Assembly: GCA_021159235.1 (NCBI GenBank)
Contig: JAGGSF010000063.1
Coordinates: 1 to 31,998, forward strand
Direction: 5' to 3'
DNA length: 31,998 nt
Source: Deltaproteobacteria bacterium
Lineage (GTDB): Bacteria; Campylobacterota_A; Desulfurellia; JAGGSF01
The notes under the pieces: model-generated
Told to the model about the DNA's origin: nothing
Databases searched by the model: none
What the model saw: the letters and a program-made list of their open reading frames with translations, nothing else
Shown here: positions 2,526-30,652 of the stretch, in pieces
Layout of the letters: every line of letters starts with the position of its first letter
Position numbering within the stretch: position 1 is the stretch's first letter
Made by a program: the position numbers and the translations under genes

Positions 2526-3494
2526 ATGGCACGACAGTTGCGCATCATCTATCCTAACGCATTATATTATATTACCTCGTGCGGTAATACACAACAGGAT
2601 ATTTTTTTTAATGACAGTGATAGACGAAAGTTTCTAAGTATTCTTGCTCGCACCAAAGAGGAATACGGATATATTCTCCACAGCTATTGTCTTATGAACA
2701 GTTGCTTTCATCTTTTATTAGAAACGCCCCATGCCAATTTGCATGCCATTATGCAGAATATCAACACCTCCTACACTGTTTATGTAAACAGGAAATATAA
2801 GAGAACAGGACATCTATTTAGAGGAAGGTATAAGGCGATCATAGTAGACAAAGAAAATTATCTCCTTCGGGTAAGTAAATATATTCATCTCAAACCCGTT
2901 GAAGCCAGATTAACCAACCTTCCCGGAGATTATATGTGGAGTAGCTATAAGGACTTTATCCATCCCTGTAACTCAATTGTAGATACAGAGTTCATCTTAT
3001 CTCGTCTTTGTGATGATGCCAAAAAATCTCGTGAGCTTTATAAATATTTTGTAGAAAAGGAAAAAAGTGAGGATATACAAAAGAATGTAAAGGGTGTAGT
3101 GTTGGGAGATGAAAGATTCATAGAGGATATTCTACAAAGAATAAAAAACATAAGAAAGAAAGAACATCCTGTGGTGCGCCAACTTATGACAGTGTTTCCA
3201 CCAATGGAAGTTATCGCAAAGGTTGCTGCATTTTTTGGAGTTAAACCTGCAAAAATCCTGCGGAGATCACGCAACAGGTGGGAAAGGAAGATTGCCATCT
3301 ATCTGGCAAAGGTTCTCTCCAGAAAGAGTCATAGAATATTGGGAAGGTATTTTGGTATCAGTGGAGCAGCGATAAGTGCGGCTATAAAAAAGTGTATGAC
3401 AGAGATGAAAAAGGATAAAAAACTTGAGAAGATAGTAGAACAGATAAAAAACAATGTTGTTGAGGAGAAAACAAATGCCCCAGACAGGATTTGA
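2526..3494 (+). CDS. REP-associated (RAYT/Y1) transposase-like protein with DnaA-type C-terminal HTH
   Basis: Residues 1-130 match the Y1 transposase domain of RAYTs: MARQLRIIYPNALYYITS at the start, TGHLFRGRYKAI at about 94-105 and SKYIHLKPVEA at about 117-127. The last of these holds the likely catalytic Tyr119. The C-terminal third (about 235-305, ending ILGRYFGISGAAISAAIKK) looks like the DnaA-like helix-turn-helix appended to many of these proteins. The family HUH motif, normally in MPNHYHLL, reads MNSCFHLL here: Cys60 replaces the first His and His62 remains. That may impair or alter metal binding. The last five sense codons and stop lie inside the convergent tRNA-Arg gene. No REP-type palindromes flank it. 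It could be a domesticated or decaying single-copy element. Confidence 0.88.
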   Translation: MARQLRIIYPNALYYITSCGNTQQDIFFNDSDRRKFLSILARTKEEYGYILHSYCLMNSCFHLLLETPHANLHAIMQNINTSYTVYVNRKYKRTGHLFRGRYKAIIVDKENYLLRVSKYIHLKPVEARLTNLPGDYMWSSYKDFIHPCNSIVDTEFILSRLCDDAKKSRELYKYFVEKEKSEDIQKNVKGVVLGDERFIEDILQRIKNIRKKEHPVVRQLMTVFPPMEVIAKVAAFFGVKPAKILRRSRNRWERKIAIYLAKVLSRKSHRILGRYFGISGAAISAAIKKCMTEMKKDKKLEKIVEQIKNNVVEEKTNAPDRI

Positions 3495-3549
3495 ACCTGC
3501 GACACCGGGATTAGGAATCCCGTGCTCTATCCACCTGAGCTACTGGGGC
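3476..3549 (-). tRNA. tRNA-Arg (anticodon CCU)
   Basis: The minus strand folds into a full cloverleaf. The acceptor stem GCCCCAG (3543-3549) pairs with CTGGGGC (3477-3483), and the D arm is GCTC/GAGC. The anticodon stem CGGGA/TCCCG carries loop TTCCTAA with anticodon CCT. The T arm is GCAGG TTCAAAT CCTGT and the discriminator is A. CCA is not encoded, since the next bases are TTT. This tRNA reads AGG codons. The convergent transposase reading frame ends inside its T arm and acceptor region. Confidence 0.97.
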
Positions 3550-3586: not shown

Positions 3587-3611
3587 TCCTTGTTTAAAAA
3601 AAGAGGTGATT

Positions 3612-4793
3612 ATGGACCTGTTTGAAAAATGCAGAAAATTCAAAGATGCAAGAAGAGCAATGGAAATGGGACTTTATCCCTATTTTGTGCCCATTGAATC
3701 TGAACAGGGAACAGAGGTTTTGATAAATGGCAGGAAGATATTGATGTTGGGCTCCAACAGCTATTTAGGTTTGGTTACTCATCCCAAAGTAAAGGAAGCA
3801 GCTATAAATGCAATAAAGAAATATGGGACCGGCTGCGCGGGCTCGCGTTTTTTAAATGGAACACTGGATATACACATGGAATTGGAAGAAAGACTGGCAA
3901 CGTTTGTAGGCAAAGAAGCTGCTCTTTTATTCAGTACTGGTTTTCAAGTGAACTTAGGAACAATCAGTGCACTGGTGGGGAGAGGCGAATATGTAATAAT
4001 GGATAAATCTGACCATGCCAGCATTGTAGATGCTGCTCAGCTTTCTTTTGGTATAGCTAAAAGATACTTGCACAACGATATGAATTCCTTAGAAAAACTT
4101 TTAAAAAGTCTGGATTACGACACCCCGAAGCTCATCGTTGTTGATGGTGTCTATAGCATGGATGGGGACATTGCCAACTTGCCGGAGCTTGTCAGACTGA
4201 AGAAAAAATACAACGCGAGACTCATGGTTGACGATGCACATGCGGTAGGTGTGATTGGAAGAAACGGCAGGGGAACAGCGGATTACTATGGATTAACAGA
4301 TGAGACAGACCTCATCATGGCCACCTTTAGCAAATCTTTTGCATCCCTGGGTGGATTTATAGCAGCCGATGAGTATGTCATACATTATCTAAAGCATTAT
4401 GCACGTTCGCTTATCTTTTCCGCCAGTATTACGCCTGCCTCTACTGCCGCCTGTCTGGCGGCACTGGATATTATGGAGAATGAACCGGAACGTATTGAAA
4501 AATTGTGGGCAAATACCAATCGTATGCGAAAGGGATTGCAAGAGATGGGATACGATACTGGAAACAGTTGCACTCCCATTATTCCCGTTATTGTTGGTGA
4601 TGATCACAAGGTATTGCTTATGCGAAAGATACTGTTTGATGAAGGAATATTTGTAAATCCGGTGGTTTCACCAGCAGTGCCCAAAAACAGAACACTGGTG
4701 AGGGTAAGTGTTATGGCTACCCACACCTTTAACCAGATAGATTTTGCACTGGAAAAATTCAGAAAGGTTGGTAAAAAACTGGGTATTATATGA
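3612..4793 (+). CDS. spt: Serine palmitoyltransferase-like alpha-oxoamine synthase
   Basis: A PLP-dependent alpha-oxoamine synthase condensing an amino acid with an acyl thioester. PLP-site residues are visible: Asp-His in KSDHAS (about residue 135), VDDAH (about 206-210) and the Schiff-base lysine in [11 protein letters not shown] (Lys241). The features favour serine palmitoyltransferase over 2-amino-3-ketobutyrate CoA ligase or KAPA synthase: [30 protein letters not shown], and the C-terminal [12 protein letters not shown]...[13 protein letters not shown] would make 3-ketosphinganine from serine and a long acyl chain. The frame opens at 3522 inside the tRNA gene; ATG 3612 with GAGGTGAT just upstream is the real start. 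It shares ATGA with the GNAT-like gene. Fold and class are near certain, substrate probable. Confidence 0.82.
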
Positions 4794-5896
4794 TAGAGGT
4801 TGTAGAGGCACCTTCAAAGAAAGAATTTGTCCTGTTTCCATGGAAGATTTACAAGAAACACAAATGCTGGGTTCCTCCTTTAATCAAAGAAGAAATAGAA
4901 CTGTTGGACGAAAACAAAAACCCCTTTTATAAGCATGCAAAGATAAAGCTTTTTCTTGCCTATAAGGATAAAGAGGTGGCAGGAAGAATTGCAGCCTGTA
5001 TAGATAAAAGGCATAATGAATATCATAAAGACAAGGTGGGTTTCTTTGGATTCTTTGAGTGTATAAATGATTTCAATGTATCAAGGGCATTGCTGGATGA
5101 AGCCTCTTCTTATTTGCGCCAGCAAGGCATGGATAGAATGAGAGGCCCTGTAAATCCATCTATGAATGATTCCTGTGGTCTTCTGATAAAGGGATTCTTT
5201 TCTCCCCCGGTTTTTATGATGCCATATAATCCCCGCTACTATATAAATCTGTTAGAAAACTACGGATTGAAGAAGGTAAAAGATCTGTATGCCTACTACC
5301 TTTCTACACTAACAAAGCCTGATGAGAGGCTCATTCGCATAGGAGAAAAGATAAAGAAAAGATTCAATATTTCCTTGCGTTATTTTTCTAAAAAAGCCCT
5401 TAAGAGGGATGTGAATATAATTAAAGATATTTATTCTCAGGCCTGGAAAGACAACTGGAGTTTTGTTCCTCCTACCGATGAGGAGATAGCATATACCGCG
5501 AAAAGATTGAAGAACATCGTCCCTGAAAAATTTATCATCTTTGCTGAAAAAGAAGGAGAACCATGCGGATATTCGCTTATCCTTCCGGATTTCAACCAGG
5601 CCTTGAGGGTAATCAATGGAAAAATAACGGTTTTTAATTTTTTAGAATTTTTATCTGCTTTAAAAAAGATAAACAACTGCAGGCTTATTACACTGGGTAT
5701 CATTGATAAATATCGCCGCTTAGGTATAGATTTACTCCTTTACTTAGAGAGTTTCAAGGTGGTGGAAGAAAGCGGATATGTAGGAGGGGAACTCTCCTGG
5801 ACACTGGAGGATAATCTCTCTATCAACAAACCCATAGAAGAAAAGATGAATGCAGAACTGTATAAGGTCTACAGAATATATGAGAAAGAGATTTAG
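4790..5896 (+). CDS. GNAT-fold N-acyltransferase, bacterial ceramide synthase-like (bCerS candidate)
   Basis: A 368-residue cytosolic protein of the GNAT superfamily. Residues about 116-150 contain the striking conserved block [20 protein letters not shown] followed by [16 protein letters not shown] associate this block with the family annotated as GNAT acetyltransferase that includes bacterial ceramide synthase. The C-terminal half has a second GNAT-like segment, with [19 protein letters not shown] resembling the acyl-CoA-binding loop. Its start codon overlaps the stop of the SPT-like gene (ATGA). That coupling supports a joint pathway in which SPT makes the ketosphinganine base and this enzyme N-acylates it. 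No ceramide reductase or dedicated acyl carrier protein is in the window. The family link is from memory, so the specific function is inference. Confidence 0.7.
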
Positions 5897-7168
5897 CTAT
5901 TTTGCTTTTATAACTTTTGTTTTCATATAATCCTGCAATACTTCTGGAATCACCACTGAGCCATCTTCCTGCTGATAGTTTTCCAAGATCGCAATCACCG
6001 TTCTTCCTACCGCCAACCCCGAACCATTCAGGGTGTAAACATACTCTGTTTTCTTGCCACCTTTTCTCCTGAATCTTATATTTGCTCTCCTGGCCTGAAA
6101 ATCTAAACAGTTTGAACAGGAAGAAACCTCTCTAAATCTGTTTTCCCCGGGCAGCCATACCTCTATATCGCAGGTTTTTGCACTGGAAAAACCTATGTCC
6201 CCAGAACACAGCAAAACTACACGATACGGGATTTTTAAAAGTCTCAGTATTTCCTGAGCATCTTCTGTAATTTCTTCCAGTGCTTTGAAAGAATCTTCCG
6301 GTCTTGTAAATTGCACCAGTTCTATTTTGTTAAACTGATGCTGCCTCATTATACCCCTTACATCTCTGCCATAAGAACCTGCCTCTCTACGGAAACAGGC
6401 CGACCAGGCTACATATTTCAATGGCAATGCTTCTTCCTTTAATATTTCGCCTCTATGCAGATTTACTAAAGGAACTTCTGCAGTGGGGATGAGGTATTGT
6501 CCATCTGTTTCATATGCTTCTTCCTTGAACCTCGGTAGCTGACCGGTTCCTATCATTATCTCTTCGTTGACCAAAAACGGGGGAATGATCTCCGTATAGT
6601 TGTGCTTTTCAGTGTGTACATCAATCATAAAGTTTATCAATGCCCTTTCCAACTGTGCTCCATACCCTCTATACACTGCGAATCTGGGTCCGGAGAGTTT
6701 GGCTGCGGTTTTAAAATCCAGAATGTTTAATTTTTCTCCCAGTTCCCAGTGAGTCTTCGGCTTGAAATCAAAATTTGGTATTTCTCCCCATCTCTTTACC
6801 TCTACATTCTCTCTTTCACTCTCTCCTAAAGGCACATCATCATCAATAATATTGGGCACCAGCAGCCATTCCTTTAAAAACATGTCTTCCTTATTCTTCA
6901 CATCTTCCTTTATCTTTCTGATTTCTACATCCATCTTCTTAGATTCCTTTTGGAGCTGCTCGGCTGATTGTCCTTTTCTCTTTATTTCTCCTATCCTTCT
7001 CGACATCTCCTTTTTCTCATGCAACAATATTTCCATTCGCTTTTTATCTTCTCTTATCTCTCTGTCCAAAAGAAAAAGCTTATCTATATCAACGGAATAG
7101 TGTCTTCTCTTTTTGATGTTTTCCTTTAAGAATTCCTTTTTTTCCCTCAAGACTTTTATATCTATCAT
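5897..7168 (-). CDS. serS: Seryl-tRNA synthetase
   Basis: Class II synthetase charging tRNA-Ser. The N-terminal ~100 residues are Lys/Glu-rich helices forming the long antiparallel coiled-coil arm that contacts tRNA-Ser. Motif 2 is [21 protein letters not shown] and motif 3 is [20 protein letters not shown]. The serine-binding TAEVPL segment is also present. The length of 423 aa is standard. It is the last gene of the gdh operon, its ATG overlapping the galU stop (ATGA). Its stop codon abuts the stop of the convergent GNAT-like gene with no gap. Confidence 0.98.
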
Positions 7169-8043
7169 TTATCCTTCAACAAATCCTTCAGATAATTGAG
7201 AAATTCAGGAGCAAATTTTCTGTCCTTCAGTGCATAATTTACAGTAGCCTGTAAAAATCCCATTTTATCTCCACAATCATATCTTTTCCCCTCAATTTTA
7301 CATCCATAGAGGGGTTCTTTTTGTATAAGGAGTTTTAAAGCATCGGTGAGCTGGATCTCCAGTTTATCTTCATTACTCTGTTTAATCAACTCATCCAAGC
7401 AAGAAAATATCTGTGGGGTGAGAATATATCTGCCTACAATAGCCAAATTACCAGGGGCATCCTCTGGTTTTGGTTTCTCTACCAAATCCTCTATTTTAAC
7501 TATATTCCCTTCAACTTCCTTTCCTTTTACTATACCGTATTTACTTACGTCCTTTCTTCTTACCTCCTGCAATCCAACAATGGAACAGCCAGATTTCTCA
7601 AACACCTCCAGCATCTGCTTGATGGCACTCTTTTCAGCATCAATAATATCATCGGCTAAGATAACCACGAATGCTTCATTCCCTACTACTTCCTTTGCTC
7701 GCCAGATAGCATGACCCAATCCTCTGGGTTCTCTTTGCCGGACATATATATAATCTGCCATATAAGATATTTTTCGCATCTGTTTCAATATGGATACTTT
7801 TCCCTGTTTTCTTAAGTAGTATTCCAGCTCAAAGCCAATATCAAAATAATCTGCAATTGCCCTTTTCCCCCGACCCGTAACCAGTATAATCTGCTTTATA
7901 CCCGCATCTACAGCCTCCATTACACCGTAATGAATCAATGGCTTATCGACTAAAGGAAGCATCTCCTTGGGTGAAGATTTTGTGGCAGGAAGAAATCTTG
8001 TCCCAAATCCTCCCACCGGAAAAACAGCTTTTTTTATCTTCAT
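7165..8043 (-). CDS. galU: UTP--glucose-1-phosphate uridylyltransferase
   Basis: Makes UDP-glucose, a donor for LPS, glycolipid and polysaccharide synthesis. The nucleotide-binding signature is at residues 6-35 ([20 protein letters not shown], then [10 protein letters not shown]). The second glycine of the usual AAGLGTR is kept, but the first alanines are replaced by VG. Further family blocks are [28 protein letters not shown] and [12 protein letters not shown]. The length of 292 aa is typical. Both neighbours overlap it by ATGA, so it is translated as part of the gdh-glcDF-galU-serS transcript. Confidence 0.95.
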
Positions 8044-28995: not shown

Positions 28996-29786
28996 AGAAA
29001 AAGCGTAAACCCTTTGATGATAAAAGGGATAAAATTGTGTTTCTTGGCACCGGTGGAGGAAGGGTTGTTGTTTTTTCACAGGTGAGAGCATCAGGTGGTT
29101 TGTGGTTTCAGTTGGACGGCACGATATTTGTTGTTGATCCGGGACCAGGAGCCTTGGTGAAAGCAACGAGCATGGGCATAAACATGGAAAAATTAAGGGC
29201 TATCTTCATTTCACACAGACACCTGGACCACTGCGCGGATGTAAACAGTATCATTCTGGCGATGACAGATGGAGCCAGAAAGAAGAAAGGTATAGTCTTC
29301 GCACCTCCAGATGCTATAGATGAAGATTCTGTAATCCTGGAATACTGCAAAAATACTGTAGAAAACATAATAAGGTTAAAACAAGGAGGAAAATACAAAA
29401 TAGATACCATCTCTCTATATACTCCTATAAGATTTATTCATCCTCCCCAGACATTTGGTGTTACAATAGAAAGCGAAAGATATACCATATCCTATATTAC
29501 AGATACATTATGGTTTGACGAATTACCCCGGATCTTTCAGGGTGATGTGGTCATTATGAATACCGTCTTTAAGGAACCAAGGAAAGGTTTTTATCATCTA
29601 TGCATTCATGATGTGGAGAAGTATCTCTCTGTATATAAACCAAAAATATTGATTCTCAATCACTTTGGTATGGCATTTTTACGAGCAAAACCATGGGAAT
29701 GGGCAGAGAGAATTTCAAAACAATTCAATACAAGAGTCTTAGCAGCATGGGACAATATGATTTTTGATTTAGATGAGGAAACATGA
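28992..29786 (+). CDS. Metallo-beta-lactamase-fold hydrolase
   Basis: 264 aa. The MBL metal motif is SHRHLDH (His75, His77, Asp79, His80), preceded by FVVDPGPG. Later strands contain SYITDTLWFDE and a terminal LNHFGMAFLRAKP, supplying the expected further ligands. The overall form resembles RNase Z-like or PhnP-like members, but the RNase Z exosite arm is not evident and the substrate is unknown. It overlaps mtaB and the lipid-kinase gene by ATGA on both sides, so it is co-translated with them; that does not reveal the role. Confidence 0.88.
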   Translation: MKKKRKPFDDKRDKIVFLGTGGGRVVVFSQVRASGGLWFQLDGTIFVVDPGPGALVKATSMGINMEKLRAIFISHRHLDHCADVNSIILAMTDGARKKKGIVFAPPDAIDEDSVILEYCKNTVENIIRLKQGGKYKIDTISLYTPIRFIHPPQTFGVTIESERYTISYITDTLWFDELPRIFQGDVVIMNTVFKEPRKGFYHLCIHDVEKYLSVYKPKILILNHFGMAFLRAKPWEWAERISKQFNTRVLAAWDNMIFDLDEET

Positions 29787-30652
29787 AAATAGGAATCCTG
29801 ATAAATCCAAAGGCTCGAAGATTTAATCCAAAACAGGTTCACACCATTGCTTCTTACTTCAGAAGAAAGGGACACCATATAAGGGTTGCGTTCATCAAAA
29901 GAAGGGGTGATGGAGAGATAATAGCACGCTCTTTAGCAGGAGATGGTTTTGATGTTGTAGCTGCCTGTGGTGGTGATGGAATAGTCACCGATGTAGCAGA
30001 AGGACTAATTCACACCAACACTGCACTGGCAGTTTTACCTGCAGGAACAACGGACGTCTTTGCACAAGAGATGGGAATACCCAGAAATGCTTTAAAGGCA
30101 AGCCTGCTGATAGAAAAAGGCTTAAAAAAGAAAATATACACTGGAGTAATAAACGGAAACAGGCATTTCTTGGTTATGTGCGGCGTAGGTTTTGATGCTA
30201 TGATTATAAAAACTGTAAGCAACAGGTTTAAAAAACGATGGGGTAAACTCTCTTACATCTCCTCAGGACTATTTCATATGCTCAAATACCATGGAAAACA
30301 AATAGATGTAAAGATAGATGGAGAAAAAGAAAGATGTTTTACGCTTATAATAGGAAATGCAAAAAGGTATGGGGGTAGTTTTAGTGTTACACCTCATGCC
30401 AGTGTTTTTAGAGAAAAACTCGATGTATGTATGTTTCGCGGAAAGGGAATGGGTTATGAAGTTTTATTTCACGCCTTGCTTATAGTGTTAAGCTTTCACT
30501 TAAAGTTAAAATCTATAAAATATCAAAGTTTTGAAAAGATGGAAATCCTTACACCTGGTATACCTGTTCACATAGATGGAGATTTCTTTGGTTTCACGCC
30601 CTTAACTATAGAAATAGAAAAGGATTTATTGCCCGTTATCGTCCCTCAATAA
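29783..30652 (+). CDS. Diacylglycerol kinase-family lipid kinase (YegS/DgkB-like)
   Basis: 289 aa with the DAGK catalytic domain. ILINPKARRF is at the start, GGDGIVTDVAEGL at about 55-70 matches the nucleotide-binding GGDGT motif (Thr replaced by Ile), and LPAGTTDVFAQEMGIP follows. A C-terminal beta domain holds GNAKRYGGSFSVTPHA and VHIDGDFFGFTP. Members phosphorylate diacylglycerol, sphingoid bases or related lipids, or bind lipids. A sphingoid substrate is conceivable given the SPT-like gene 26 kb away, but nothing here shows it. The end overlaps the convergent lipoprotein gene by 27 bases. Confidence 0.87.
   Translation: MKIGILINPKARRFNPKQVHTIASYFRRKGHHIRVAFIKRRGDGEIIARSLAGDGFDVVAACGGDGIVTDVAEGLIHTNTALAVLPAGTTDVFAQEMGIPRNALKASLLIEKGLKKKIYTGVINGNRHFLVMCGVGFDAMIIKTVSNRFKKRWGKLSYISSGLFHMLKYHGKQIDVKIDGEKERCFTLIIGNAKRYGGSFSVTPHASVFREKLDVCMFRGKGMGYEVLFHALLIVLSFHLKLKSIKYQSFEKMEILTPGIPVHIDGDFFGFTPLTIEIEKDLLPVIVPQ

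Follow-up and report, generated by a model that had tools for sequence, protein, structure and literature searches.

A probable translationally coupled serine palmitoyltransferase and GNAT-type acyltransferase gene pair, with a predicted role in ceramide synthesis, in the Hippea/Desulfurella class of Campylobacterota

Organization of the locus

The window analyzed here, a stretch of 31,998 nucleotides (contig JAGGSF010000063.1), comes from a genome that is probably best placed beside Hippea and Desulfurellaceae, since proteins from genomes listed under its class occur in identical form in named Desulfurellales and Hippea records. Near one end of it lie two overlapping forward-strand genes and the following associated features:

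3476 to 3549, minus strand: tRNA-Arg(CCT), a divergent neighbor outside the system (ARAGORN)
3600 to 3611, plus strand: predicted ribosome-binding-site-like stretch ahead of the first gene, read from the sequence
3612 to 4793, plus strand: predicted serine palmitoyltransferase (SPT; an alpha-oxoamine synthase, AONS) of 393 amino acids, assigned by NCBIfam model NF047600, PDB entry 3a2b and a tree
4790 to 5896, plus strand: predicted N-acyltransferase of the GNAT superfamily, bacterial ceramide synthase (bCerS/CerS) type, of 368 amino acids, assigned by YghO homology, adjacency to SPT and a tandem GNAT model

Translation places both open reading frames where the initial annotation had them, the first running from the ATG at 3612 to a stop at 4793 and the second from the ATG at 4790 to a stop at 5896, so that the bases ATGA are common to both genes. 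The sequence AGAGGTGATT forms a good predicted ribosome-binding site 5' of the ATG at 3612. An alternative GTG start at 3522 is unlikely because the longer reading frame would run into the tRNA-Arg gene. The tRNA gene noticed earlier beside the pair is the minus-strand tRNA-Arg(CCT) just upstream (ARAGORN). Its sequence is overlapped by about 19 bases by the end (3494) of a forward-strand gene (2526 to 3494) for an IS200/REP-type Y1 transposase whose C-terminus is fused to a DnaA C-terminal DNA-binding domain. On the other side, the acyltransferase gene and a convergent seryl-tRNA synthetase gene end on adjoining bases (5896 and 5897), with zero spacer.

Family membership of the two encoded proteins

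The first protein contains GSNSYLGL (residue 47), a 12-residue motif (residue 73) and FSKS (residue 239), the last of which confirms Lys241 as the pyridoxal phosphate (PLP) lysine. Its highest-scoring NCBIfam model is the SPT model NF047600 (SerpalmtaseCFB; 620.6 bits), 212 bits ahead of the runner-up at 408 bits. The score lies 19 bits below the equivalog cut-off of 640 bits, which is a database threshold and not a biochemical property. Relatives from the same class score 592 to 634 bits, and SPTs of Myxococcota and Verrucomicrobiota with bCerS and ceramide reductase (CerR) genes nearby score 610 to 615 bits; since these also stay below 640 bits, falling short of the cut-off is no sign of another function, and the cut-off is drawn tightly around Bacteroidota. 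On the same model, Escherichia coli Kbl and BioF reach 347 and 247 bits, respectively, and each is won by its own model. The preference for SPT over ALAS was tested by model score only. The best solved relative is the Sphingobacterium SPT (PDB 3a2b; 488 bits, full-length), against which the AONS active-site residues are in place, with Lys241 within TFSKS and the DHAS and VDDAH segments aligned; the motif at residue 73 is identical in both enzymes and its surroundings are very alike. A maximum-likelihood tree groups the protein with the Sphingobacterium SPT (support 100/97), separate from KBL and BioF. The genome encodes no other AONS. The SPT-like identity proposed in the initial annotation is thus borne out by model, structural match and tree, and the grouping with KBL or KAPA synthases that would have spoken against it was looked for in the tree and not seen. 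By sequence comparison, we regard the protein as an SPT of the Bacteroidota type.

The second protein was proposed to be a bCerS-like GNAT protein, and this assignment is supported: it is homologous over its full length (33% identity over 365 amino acids) to YghO of E. coli BL21, a proposed N-acyltransferase from a published SPT cluster, and its relatives in many phyla adjoin SPT and an epimerase-type reductase. To most GNAT proteins in proteobacterial loci of the SPT-ACP-CerR type it is about 31–36% identical. The 10-residue motif starting at residue 118 and MMPYNPRYY (from residue 143), both described earlier, are present and fall where the family alignment is most strongly conserved. Pfam returns only a sub-threshold GNAT match, and neither Pfam nor NCBIfam holds a curated family for the protein. 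The predicted structure, computed from 35 sequences, has a mean pLDDT of 92 and a tandem (double) GNAT fold. Among solved structures the model matches tandem-GNAT acetyltransferases (Z 21–24) and N-myristoyltransferases (Z about 15), matches that would suit an N-acyltransferase without proving its substrate. In an unrooted tree, all members of the protein's own 20-row clade are SPT-linked, and deeper in the tree SPT-linked and unlinked members are intermingled. For some family members no SPT was present inside the DNA fetched around them, and membership in the GNAT family alone is therefore no proof of function.

Conservation of the pair and partner genes elsewhere

The SPT and GNAT genes lie side by side in each of the 24 Hippea/Desulfurella-class loci examined (some genomes counted twice; named Hippea and Desulfurellaceae genomes included), mostly with the identical ATGA overlap, which argues that the pairing is not due to chance. 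The genome of the same genus designated G002, scored as 100% complete in 230 contigs, yielded neither SPT nor GNAT and kept the reductase, reflecting either loss or an assembly gap; for G021, whose SPT sits at the very edge of a contig, an assembly gap is a likely cause. Outside the class the two genes adjoin or lie near one another in Ignavibacteriota, Zixibacteria, Gemmatimonadota, Myxococcota, Verrucomicrobiota, and Pseudomonadota, and a recurrent third gene beside them encodes an NAD-dependent epimerase, the presumed reductase type (e.g., in Rubrobacter, Streptomyces, Gemmatimonadota, and Myxococcota). All four plasmid matches inspected (Rubrobacter, Streptomyces, Aureispira, and Sphingomonas parapaucimobilis) combine AONS, GNAT and an epimerase or NAD(P)-binding protein, the S. 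parapaucimobilis locus having a Caulobacter-like layout. The actinobacterial plasmids of Rubrobacter and Streptomyces (L156 and L157), like the Aureispira locus, carry AONS-GNAT-epimerase trios, followed in L157 by a condensation-domain protein. In one proteobacterial genome (G140), AONS-GNAT loci occur at two separate places (L138 and L132); the L138 AONS is divergent, branches far from the other SPT of that genome and perhaps serves a different lipid.

That the reductase would be encoded elsewhere, as anticipated from the window, agrees with the genome search: a profile of SPT-linked epimerases finds a CerR candidate at positions 6676 to 7596 of another contig (G000:C14) with 241 bits, the next match scoring 71 bits. 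The profile has a match in 25 of 25 genomes of the class, with one strong CerR homolog per genome. In a related genome that forms a single contig (G004), the pair maps to about 122 kb and the reductase to about 878 kb, so that they are truly unlinked there. The candidate is 26–28% identical to reference reductases, and its placement in a tree is weakly supported. A dedicated acyl carrier protein (ACP), the other partner named in the initial annotation, was not found: the genome has one PP-binding match, and none lies near the pair. Nor were the AcpR and AasR partners of the rhodobacterial SPT system recovered as such in this genome, where AMP-binding proteins are present but unlinked.

LpxC occurs in the genome of the window and almost throughout the class, so the organism probably makes LPS, and the idea of a sphingolipid as LPS substitute is unsupported. 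Farther along the window (29783 to 30652, plus strand) lies a gene for a lipid kinase of the DAGK/YegS family, the broad family to which the Caulobacter ceramide kinase CpgB belongs; the protein has a GGDG motif. The fetched loci, Caulobacter-like clusters included, contained no detectable relative of it, and we therefore do not connect it with a head-group pathway.

Predicted pathway, alternatives and known systems

Taken at the level of sequence, the two overlapping genes very probably provide the enzymes that build the ceramide core. The SPT, with PLP on Lys241, would join a long acyl thioester to an amino acid, most likely L-serine, in a condensation that yields a 3-keto long-chain base; the double-GNAT N-acyltransferase would transfer a second acyl chain to the amine of this base; and the epimerase-type CerR encoded elsewhere would form dihydroceramide by reducing the ketone, either ahead of the N-acylation step or following it. 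As the genome search turned up no dedicated ACP, the acyl donor would probably be acyl-CoA or a general ACP. We hold this reading, a translationally coupled SPT-bCerS pair served by an unlinked reductase, with high confidence. The family membership of all three proteins rests on sequence, phylogeny, synteny and predicted fold; substrates, the order of reactions and actual lipid production are what we infer. The overlap of SPT and acyltransferase genes and the distant reductase fit, without proving it, N-acylation ahead of reduction in bacteria, an order also supported by the cytoplasmic location of bCerS and the periplasmic location of CerR (PMC11087976).

The choice of amino acid is not readable from fold and pairing. 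Spt-like enzymes can accept alanine, and Black Sea 1-deoxyceramides show a correlation with anaerobes (PMC11334938), so that an AONS preferring alanine, glycine or another amino acid, with a 1-deoxyceramide or related lipid as product, would also accommodate the scores slightly below the SPT cut-off. The wide margin of the SPT model and the agreement with the Sphingobacterium enzyme in and around the residue-73 motif make such a preference unlikely. Considerably harder to sustain is an AONS of biotin or threonine metabolism (BioF or KBL) paired with the GNAT by chance. The protein is 38% identical to E. coli Kbl, which equals its identity to E. coli SPT, and a search of the genome found no second AONS, but both the NCBIfam scores and the tree place it with SPT, on which grounds the BioF/KBL assignment was rejected, and the association with GNAT and reductase is conserved across phyla; we give this explanation almost no weight.

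The GNAT fold is used on a wide range of substrates, and the solved structures nearest to this one are acetyltransferases, which leaves a small chance that the second protein acts elsewhere, for example in short-chain acetylation or on another amine, and that the amide is made by a different enzyme. Against this stand its tight coupling to SPT throughout the class and in distant phyla, and the fact that it is a homolog of the acyltransferase on which, by genetic evidence, ceramide formation from SPT clusters depends (PMC11324152; PMC9386255). Returning to the SPT-bCerS reading, we lean towards a broader form of it, in which a class-wide Bacteroidota-type SPT coupled to bCerS and fed by a general ACP or acyl-CoA makes ceramides or 1-deoxyceramides alongside ordinary LPS.

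The initial annotation saw in the pair a useful extension of bacterial sphingolipid distribution. A lineage is indeed added, a deep and partly cultivated anaerobic one that joins the predicted sphingolipid producers, yet the extension is modest and the pair belongs to a known kind, given that Spt-like genes in MAGs already bring the total to about 40 phyla, often with bCerS and CerR clustered (PMC11334938). Campylobacterota are unnamed in the main text of that paper, and a literature search over the main texts of freely accessible papers returned none on topic for sphingolipids in Hippea or Campylobacterota or for Campylobacterota together with SPT. As judged from the genomes, the pair is a sound but unremarkable widening of the bacterial range of sphingolipid synthesis, and because it is kept throughout the class the prediction lends itself readily to testing in cultured Hippea.

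Among known systems, the Sphingobacterium SPT (PDB 3a2b; NF047600) shares with the window's enzyme a full-length match, the catalytic lysine, the motifs and the clade, and differs in that the latter is slightly under the cut-off and comes from Campylobacterota, not Bacteroidota. In E. coli BL21, yghO is divergent to genes for a fatty acyl-AMP ligase, an epimerase, ACP and spt (ECD_02850-02854); ECD_02850, equated with YghO by gene order, has been proposed as the N-acyltransferase of this cluster (PMC9386255). SPT, GNAT and reductase are 38, 33, and 26% identical to their BL21 counterparts, whereas the genome studied here yielded no dedicated ACP, neither a ligase nor the reductase is linked to the pair, the SPT is of the Bacteroidota type, and the SPT and GNAT genes overlap. 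In Caulobacter, where genetics shows that dihydroceramide formation needs SPT, CerR and CerS (PMC11324152), the acpR and aasR partners and lptFG-like genes have no counterpart seen here, while the same three enzyme roles (CC_1162 spt, CC_1164 cerR, CC_1154 cerS) recur, as judged through Caulobacter-like loci and with BL21 YghO as a stand-in.
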